This document shows, in pieces, positions 14,819 to 15,741 of a stretch of 64,000 bases of DNA. The stretch's first letter is position 1. Each line of letters starts with the position of its first letter. The DNA is taken from the NCBI GenBank assembly GCA_030614915.1, contig JAUXAG010000004.1, positions 62,001 to 126,000 of the forward strand, read 5' to 3'. Below the pieces are notes generated by a model. It ran no database searches and had not been told where the DNA came from. It was given only the letters and a program-made list of their open reading frames with translations. Both the position numbers and the translations under genes were made by a program. This DNA is from Actinomycetes bacterium (GTDB lineage: Bacteria; Planctomycetota; Phycisphaerae; JAACET01).

Positions 14819-15205
14819 TCAAACCACCTCAGAAGCCAAAGAAATAATTTTCATGAATTTTTTTTCTCTCAATTCTCTTCCGACAGCCCCAAAGATTCGA
14901 GTGCCGCGAGGATTTCCATCCGGGTCGATGATCACCCCGGCGTTGTGGTCGAAACGCACATAACTGCCGTCGAGCCTGCGAGTGCGGTGCTTGGTGCGAA
15001 CGATAACACAGCGGACCATGTCTCCGGATTTGACTTCTCCGCCGGGAATAGCCTTTTTTACGGCACAAACTATAACATCACCGAGCCCTGCGGTTCGACG
15101 GGTGTATTTTCCGCGAGCAGTGGAGCCGCGAAGGACCTTAATACACTGGGCGACCTTAGCCCCGGAGTTGTCGGCAATAGTTATTCTGGTCTGCATCTGA
15201 ATCAC
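14819..15205 (-). CDS. rplN: 50S ribosomal protein L14
   Basis: L14 of 128 residues. I prefer the GTG at 15205 over the ATG at 15196 because GAGG lies seven bases before it and the family starts MIQxQT. Recognised by [12 protein letters not shown] and [15 protein letters not shown]. The spacer upstream towards rpsQ contains an inserted 188-bp element. Confidence 0.96.
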
Positions 15206-15236: not shown

Positions 15237-15424
15237 CTAGAAGCCATCCCAAAACCCCAATTTCTGCTGCGAACGGCCCTTTTCACGCAGTGATGCTACG
15301 CATTGTCGCCTGTCTGCGTCGCTCAAACTCAATATATTCTCCAAATATGCATCGTTTTCGCTTCTTGCCAGCCGCCAAAATTGCTCGTTCTCGCTACGAA
15401 AGCAGGTTTTGGGATGACTTCTAG
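15237..15424. mobile_element. MITE-like element with terminal inverted repeats between rpsQ and rplN
   Basis: A 188-bp segment bounded by 20-bp inverted repeats: CTAGAAGCCATCCCAAAACC at 15237-15256 and its complement with one mismatch at 15405-15424. The palindromy continues inwards imperfectly (AATTTCTGCTGCGAACG against CGTTCTCGCTACGAAAGC). It has no transposase and only shadow ORFs. The right end touches the rpsQ stop codon. A normal rpsQ-rplN spacer is a few tens of bases, so this is an insertion; the mobilising enzyme is not in the window. Confidence 0.75.
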
Positions 15425-15706
15425 CTACTCCACAGCCTCGGGTCGATTGATCAACTTGAAGACTCGCCAACTCTTGGTCTTGCTGATGGGCCGACACTGA
15501 GCGATCAGGACGGTATCGCCGCGCTGGACGGAGCCGTTGGGGTCGTGCACCTGAAAACTAGTGGACCGACGGATGTATTTACCGTAGCGAGGGTGCTTGA
15601 AAAGTCGAGTGACGGCAACGGTGACGGTTTTGTCAGCCTTGGCGGAGACTACCGTGCCCAGTAGGGTGCGAACTCTGCCTCGTCTTTGTTGGGCGGTATC
15701 AGTCAT
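15425..15706 (-). CDS. rpsQ: 30S ribosomal protein S17
   Basis: S17 of 93 residues from the ATG at 15706 (MTDTAQQRRGRVRTLLGTVVS). The frame upstream to a TTG at 15730 adds residues not seen in the family. SAKADKTVTVAVTRLFKHPRYGKYIRRS is the OB-fold core. The stop abuts the MITE-like element. Confidence 0.96.
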   Translation of the reverse strand: MTDTAQQRRGRVRTLLGTVVSAKADKTVTVAVTRLFKHPRYGKYIRRSTSFQVHDPNGSVQRGDTVLIAQCRPISKTKSWRVFKLINRPEAVE

Positions 15707-15741
15707 AAGAGTGACGACTCCAAGGTACAAATCAAAGTTTC

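Follow-up and report, generated by a model that had tools for sequence, protein, structure and literature searches.

The window, a stretch of 64,000 nucleotides on a 166-kb contig of a 2.56-Mb draft genome (36 contigs), carries S10/spc genes on its minus strand, with rpsC, rplP, rpmC, rpsQ, rplN, rplX and rplE around the site analyzed here (NCBIfam). The rplB of the window shows 68–73% identity to the four nearest named genomes, which belong to the Planctomycetota, 65% to a KSB1 genome, and lower values to nearly all others, which makes a planctomycete the most likely host. A sequence titled Actinomycetota (L120, JAACET010000045.1) contains an rplB that is 87% identical to that of the window and groups with the Planctomycetota; its label looks wrong. 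The region between rpsQ and rplN was resolved into the following features (positions within the window).

14819 to 15205, minus strand: rplN (50S ribosomal protein L14, TIGR01067), GTG start, ribosome-binding site outside the element
15238 to 15239: target-site duplication TA on the rplN side, outer bases variable among complete copies
15240 to 15421, minus strand (operon sense): MITE proper, 182 bp, GAAGTCATCCCAAAACC...GGTTTTGGGATGGCTTC
15240 to 15256, plus strand: terminal inverted repeat GAAGCCATCCCAAAACC, same ends on the IS5-family elements L149 and L250
15266 to 15395 (approximate limits), minus strand: structured hairpin core enclosed by the two terminal repeats, one of its arms being 21 bp longer through an insertion relative to the 165-nt form
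15405 to 15421, minus strand: terminal inverted repeat GAAGTCATCCCAAAACC
15422 to 15423: target-site duplication TA on the rpsQ side, outer bases variable among complete copies
15425 to 15730, minus strand: rpsQ (30S ribosomal protein S17, TIGR03635), stop codon TAG at 15425 to 15427, 1 nt before the element

Ends, copies and empty sites of the element

The terminal repeats of the element correspond to TAGAAGYCATCCCAAAACC. A preliminary description of the site had reported 20-bp terminal inverted repeats with a single mismatch, and this was confirmed: CTAGAAGCCATCCCAAAACC (15237–15256, plus strand) and CTAGAAGTCATCCCAAAACC (15405–15424, minus strand) differ at one base, and matches to these ends occur at this site only within the window, with 0.01 expected by chance. 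The same description gave the element an extent of 188 bp. In nearly all of 24 complete copies the pattern TA-GAAG...CTTC-TA is constant and the outermost bases vary; a 4-bp duplication of CTAG was therefore rejected in favor of a TA duplication, which places the element proper at 15240–15421. The 188 bp are thus a 182-bp element with TA on both sides, plus an outermost C and G that belong to the target sequence. In relation to the reported position at the rpsQ stop codon, the element starts 1 nt after TAG in the mRNA. The target before insertion reads Y-TA-R in 17 of the 24 complete copies (four genomes). In three copies (L254, L255 and L257) both arms of the terminal repeat differ in step from the other copies (e.g., CCC/GGG to TTC/GAA), and in L255 the TA duplication has become TG...CA with pairing retained.

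The same genome (G000) contains roughly ten complete copies along with several fragments, so that the search for further copies with the same ends was successful. The complete copies measure 165, 186, 198 and 219 bp, shortened copies 59–102 bp, and single-end fragments are present in addition. Six further long copies show 75–87% identity in whole-query matches, and the aligned cores of copies are up to 98% identical. The copy next to rpsQ differs from the 165-nt form by a 21-bp insertion in one arm. The earlier statement that the element is palindromic throughout consequently applies to the family, which forms one full-length hairpin, more than to this copy, in which the palindrome is less perfect.

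The element is absent from the rpsQ–rplN spacer of both genomes of the same genus (35 nt in G001 and 25 nt in G002) and from all other members of the class that were compared, with spacers ranging from a 4-nt overlap to 104 nt. The empty site of G001 (...GGAGTAGCCGGGCCCGAATTG...) can be aligned by hand without gaps over 21 columns to the present sequence minus the element and one TA (...GGAGTAGCTAGACACCAATTG...). Conservation at this site without copies elsewhere is excluded by the empty sites and the genomic copies, and the insertion would postdate the split of this species from its sequenced genus relatives. Overall, the element is shorter than 500 bp, encodes no transposase gene, and has terminal inverted repeats, a TA duplication, dispersed copies and an empty site.

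The hairpin core and its ends

The plus strand of the element folds at −55.5 kcal/mol (z = −4.4, none of 200 shuffled sequences as low) and the mRNA-sense (minus) strand at −67.3 kcal/mol (z = −4.4), the latter being stronger since the mismatch in the terminal repeats becomes a G-U pair. A full-length hairpin is predicted for 20 copies from four genomes (G000, G001, G002 and G020) that were collected by BLAST or end pattern without use of structure, and 18 of its 54 pairs are changed on both sides. The core of this set without the terminal repeats (alignment A1) contains 13 doubly changed pairs out of 33 and has a covariation of 0.235, compared with 0.112 for shuffled and at most 0.07 for slid alignments; most of these double changes separate three rows of G020 from the rest and may represent few evolutionary events. 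These two tests are the cleaner ones. In alignment A2, which includes two additional elements picked after looking at the folds, 22 out of 59 pairs are doubly changed (covariation 0.222, 0.111 shuffled). Alignment A5 (32 elements) displays 58 doubly changed pairs out of 61 (covariation 0.645, 0.196 shuffled, at most 0.21 slid), and the core alone reaches 0.614 (0.173 shuffled), but these figures are partly ascertained as many members were collected with a covariance model (R1) that rewards pairing. Rfam contains no match at the site up to E = 1 and none in 12 homologous loci up to E = 0.1.

The core comprises about 110 nt (CUGGCAAGG-GCG...GGCGUAU...AUACGUCGAG...GCGACGCAGCCAG), and the hairpin CUGGCAAGG...GACGCAGCCAG is homologous between MITEs with unrelated ends (L282–L310, L312–L330 and L365–L378), a common module that goes beyond what the preliminary description had seen. 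The ends among the collected elements include TAGAAGYCATCCCAAAACC, TAACAGCCTGTGGATAAAGT, TAAGCGGGTTCGGTGAAATT, CAGCAGCCCGTTGAAGAAGT and GTGGTGTGATTCAGAAAT, whereas the interiors share sequence, including the unpaired internal-loop bases CAAGG and GACGCAG, and the same layout of bulges. At E ≤ 1e-3, a BLASTN comparison restricted to the interiors linked 45 pairs whose ends are dissimilar, against none for shuffled queries; the 45 take in some pairs with ends merely out of register. The elements L294 and L302, for example, are 83% identical over 88 nt while their ends agree at 3 of 18 positions. Several end types with related cores coexist within single genomes (G001, G020 and, with the larger variant, G000). 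This larger variant is a second hairpin repeat of G000 of more than 150 nt with a related core (L365–L371, on contigs C35, C27, C15, C22 and C9); it begins near AAGGCACTCTAACAAAACCTGACGCGGCCGCGACGCC, and some of its copies contain an extra inserted hairpin (CACCCCCAATCGC...GCGATTGGGG).

The pairing could be nothing but the product of inverted duplications that gave rise to palindromes repeatedly, in which case the structure would not be under selection. Perfect palindromes arise easily, and the ends covary because each element carries its own inverted repeat. The shared unpaired loops and bulge layout are not accounted for in this way, and neither are cores that are homologous by BLASTN between elements with unrelated ends and that contain the double changes within the homologous part; repeated palindrome formation alone is regarded as unlikely. 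Covariation and conserved loops together indicate selection on a single-stranded form, either RNA or DNA, and the sequence comparison suggests that the core is under selection as a folded single strand, as RNA or as DNA during transposition. Judged from these alignments, the core appears to be a module more lasting than the ends it carries.

Of 392 genomes sampled from the phylum, 40 contain matches to model R1 at E ≤ 1e-5, in most cases several per genome. Model R2 detects the present element as the only match of the window (15238–15423, 135 bits, E = 5e-30) and has 29 matches in its own genome, 32 in G001, 44 in G020, 38 in G035 and 42 in G055, and none in G042, G058 and G471. Other loci led to 30 genomes, of which five contain matches, namely G002 and four genomes with labels outside the phylum (Myxococcales, Desulfobacterales, Omnitrophota and Rhodobiaceae). 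In the Omnitrophota genome of L087, three hairpin elements (L319, L324 and L329) are 128 nt long; their core is a shortened one, and their ends are of kinds such as TAACAGTCTGTTGAAAAAGCC.

Operon context and IS5-family partners

The genes rpsQ and rplN and the ribosome-binding site of rplN are all intact. The insertion adds 184 nt between the two genes, and about 32 nt separate the end of the element from the GTG start codon of rplN, and the ribosome-binding region is not part of the hairpin. Neither a promoter- or terminator-like site nor a terminator-like T run was found in the element, and a role as promoter or intrinsic terminator was rejected on these grounds. On both strands, several reading frames of the element are open over long stretches; a coding function was rejected as variable sites are spread evenly over the codon positions (18/14/15) and the frame is broken in some copies. 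The insertion may be tolerated because it leaves the two reading frames and the rplN ribosome-binding site untouched and introduces no sequence resembling an intrinsic terminator. The element would be co-transcribed with the operon and would form a stable stem-loop spacer in its mRNA, possibly a substrate of RNase III or RNase E as reported for NEMIS and ERIC. By analogy with these repeats, an effect on mRNA processing or stability, as proposed in the preliminary description, is plausible.

A stronger claim would be that the operon has domesticated the hairpin in this position as a regulatory RNA, in the role of a processing site, transcript stabilizer or partial terminator. The predicted stability of the mRNA-sense hairpin is in line with this, as are published passages reporting that ERIC and NEMIS insertions alter mRNA stability through RNase E or RNase III (PMC2229807, PMC10969869). 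Among the genomes compared, however, the hairpin occupies this site in the present species only and is absent from G001 and G002, equivalent copies adjoin unrelated genes, and the missing T run speaks against termination. A domesticated regulator is accordingly regarded as distinctly unlikely.

Six of the ten complete copies in the genome touch the stop codon of an open reading frame of at least 100 amino acids. With the stop codon itself as target, TA followed by the first G of the element restores TAG. Among non-disrupting Y-TA-R sites of the window, 18% touch a stop codon, giving P of about 0.004 for six out of ten, a value based on crude gene calls and a small sample. The stop-codon contacts probably result largely from selection against insertions within genes combined with the Y-TA-R preference. 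Copies that abut stop codons are frequent among L001, L004, L005, L006, L009, L013, L014 and L016.

The proposed search for a transposase that uses these ends led to the IS5 family in other Planctomycetota, and to a relic only in the own genome. A pattern scan of public genomes identified an 836-bp element with the same ends in another planctomycete (L149, 359–1194), whose overlapping frames match PF13340, PF01609 and NF033580. A second element (L250) of 834 bp in G058, a relative within the class, has the ends TAGAAGCTATCCCAAAACC and encodes an intact 259-amino-acid transposase (NF033580, E = 1e-59); both elements thus combine TAGAAGYYATCCCAAAACC ends with IS5 transposases. Most hairpins of G055 have ends of the TTTCAAAAC type, and an IS5 element of the same genome, with disrupted reading frames, has the same variant ends, a pattern to be expected where ends track the transposase of their host genome; two of seven hairpins in this genome carry other end variants. 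No intact PF13340 transposase was found in G000, G001, G002 or G020, so that current mobility is unproven. In G000, which has no PF13340 hit, the IS5 (DDE) family is represented only by a truncated relic with related ends, and an autonomous partner within the same genome is lacking; this relic (L272, contig C29, about 500–855) contains an internal TAG and the end TAGAACCCATTTCATAACC. The similarity of the MITE to L149 and L250 is confined to the terminal repeats; a transposase remnant inside the MITE was rejected for this reason, and such homology does not demonstrate which IS, if any, the MITE descends from. The sequence evidence indicates that the element is most probably a type II MITE (sharing the ends only) that is mobilized by IS5 transposases. 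Mobilization would have occurred in trans, by an IS5 transposase that was since lost from the genome or was missed, and the core may be the persistent unit whose ends are exchanged to match resident IS5-like transposases.

An origin from a Tc1/mariner-like IS630 element, a family that also duplicates TA and to which a published passage attributes the pneumococcal RUP (IS630-Spn1, PMC2229807), is very unlikely: elements with these ends encode IS5-family transposases and the target is Y-TA-R, and this origin was rejected as the own genome contains no DDE_3 transposase (PF13358). MITEs and other repeats can lead to assembly errors, and the genome is a draft, but an artefactual joining of a repeat into the operon is just as improbable, given a copy that is identical to no other and carries a private 21-bp insertion, flanks that run on into the conserved S10/spc order on both sides, and an exact TA duplication. 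An ancient, vertically inherited and non-mobile structured RNA of the operon, for which the conserved internal structure might be cited, is next to impossible and already refuted by the empty site within the genus, the TA duplication and the multiple genomic copies.

The copies, the empty sites and the matching IS5 ends bear out the original proposal of a mobile element between rpsQ and rplN. With a probability of about 0.88, the site represents a non-autonomous MITE that was inserted in trans by an IS5-family (NF033580-type) transposase at C-TA-G, 1 nt past the rpsQ stop codon, later than the split within the genus.

Relation to known repeats and significance

Several known bacterial repeats resemble the element in part, and the comparisons below draw on passages of the cited publications. 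The ERIC (IRU, RU-1) repeats of enterobacteria are 127 bp long, with TA termini and a transcript stem-loop that changes mRNA stability (PMC2229807). They share with the present element the short, non-coding and intergenic nature, the TA termini and the long stem-loop, but are described from other hosts and with a terminal repeat of 7 bp compared with 17–20 bp in the present element; for the present family, an autonomous IS5 element whose ends match was found. The Correia (NEMIS) elements of Neisseria are MITEs with terminal inverted repeats of about 24 bp, a TA duplication and a co-transcribed hairpin that is cut by RNase III (PMC2229807, PMC10969869). The likeness extends to the repeats, the duplication and the hairpin, which is a predicted fold in the present case; some Correia subtypes are described as carrying promoters and an IHF site, whereas no promoter-like site was found here. 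The RUP elements of the pneumococcus are non-autonomous, have ends in common with the mobilizing IS630-Spn1 and target TA (PMC2229807); they differ in the transposase family (IS630 instead of IS5), and the passage describing them reports no conserved structured core. For the MITEs QMITE of Coxiella and Chunjie of Geobacter, variants of different size and numerous partial copies are described (PMC10969869). The present family resembles them in both respects and is set apart by their descriptions as one-genome families. REP and REPIN sequences, associated with RAYT transposases, are palindromic repeats thought to be mobilized in trans. REPs are described as 20–40 bp long with a GTAG or CGTC tag at one end (PMC3733652), in contrast to the 160–190 bp, long terminal inverted repeats, TA duplication and DDE-type IS5 partners of the present element.

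The best reading is an ERIC/NEMIS-like, IS5-mobilized MITE in which the conserved unit is a structured core that is combined with many kinds of ends, while the passages on the closest published elements emphasize the ends and the folding of the whole element. A search of the open-licence literature on MITEs in ribosomal-protein operons, on MITEs in Planctomycetes and on covarying cores yielded no description of the present family, nor of any cross-phylum MITE family in which the core covaries and the ends change. The broader proposal, to which we give an even chance of being right, is that the rpsQ–rplN copy belongs to a very widespread and apparently undescribed MITE superfamily in which the conserved unit is the core of about 110 nt, maintained by compensatory change, and the ends are many and unrelated.

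A MITE within the S10/spc operon represents a natural experiment, a tolerated hairpin spacer between neighboring ribosomal-protein genes. In a phylum for which genetic data are scarce, it allows polarity and coupling in the operon to be tested, as well as processing by RNases. The core and its ends are considered more important than the operon insertion. MITEs are usually seen as transposon ends with meaningless filler between them; here the filler is conserved and covarying and the ends change. The conserved core points to a function of the folded strand, and its model finds such elements across phyla. If true, the combination of a folded core with the ends of resident IS5-like elements would constitute modular persistence of a non-autonomous element.
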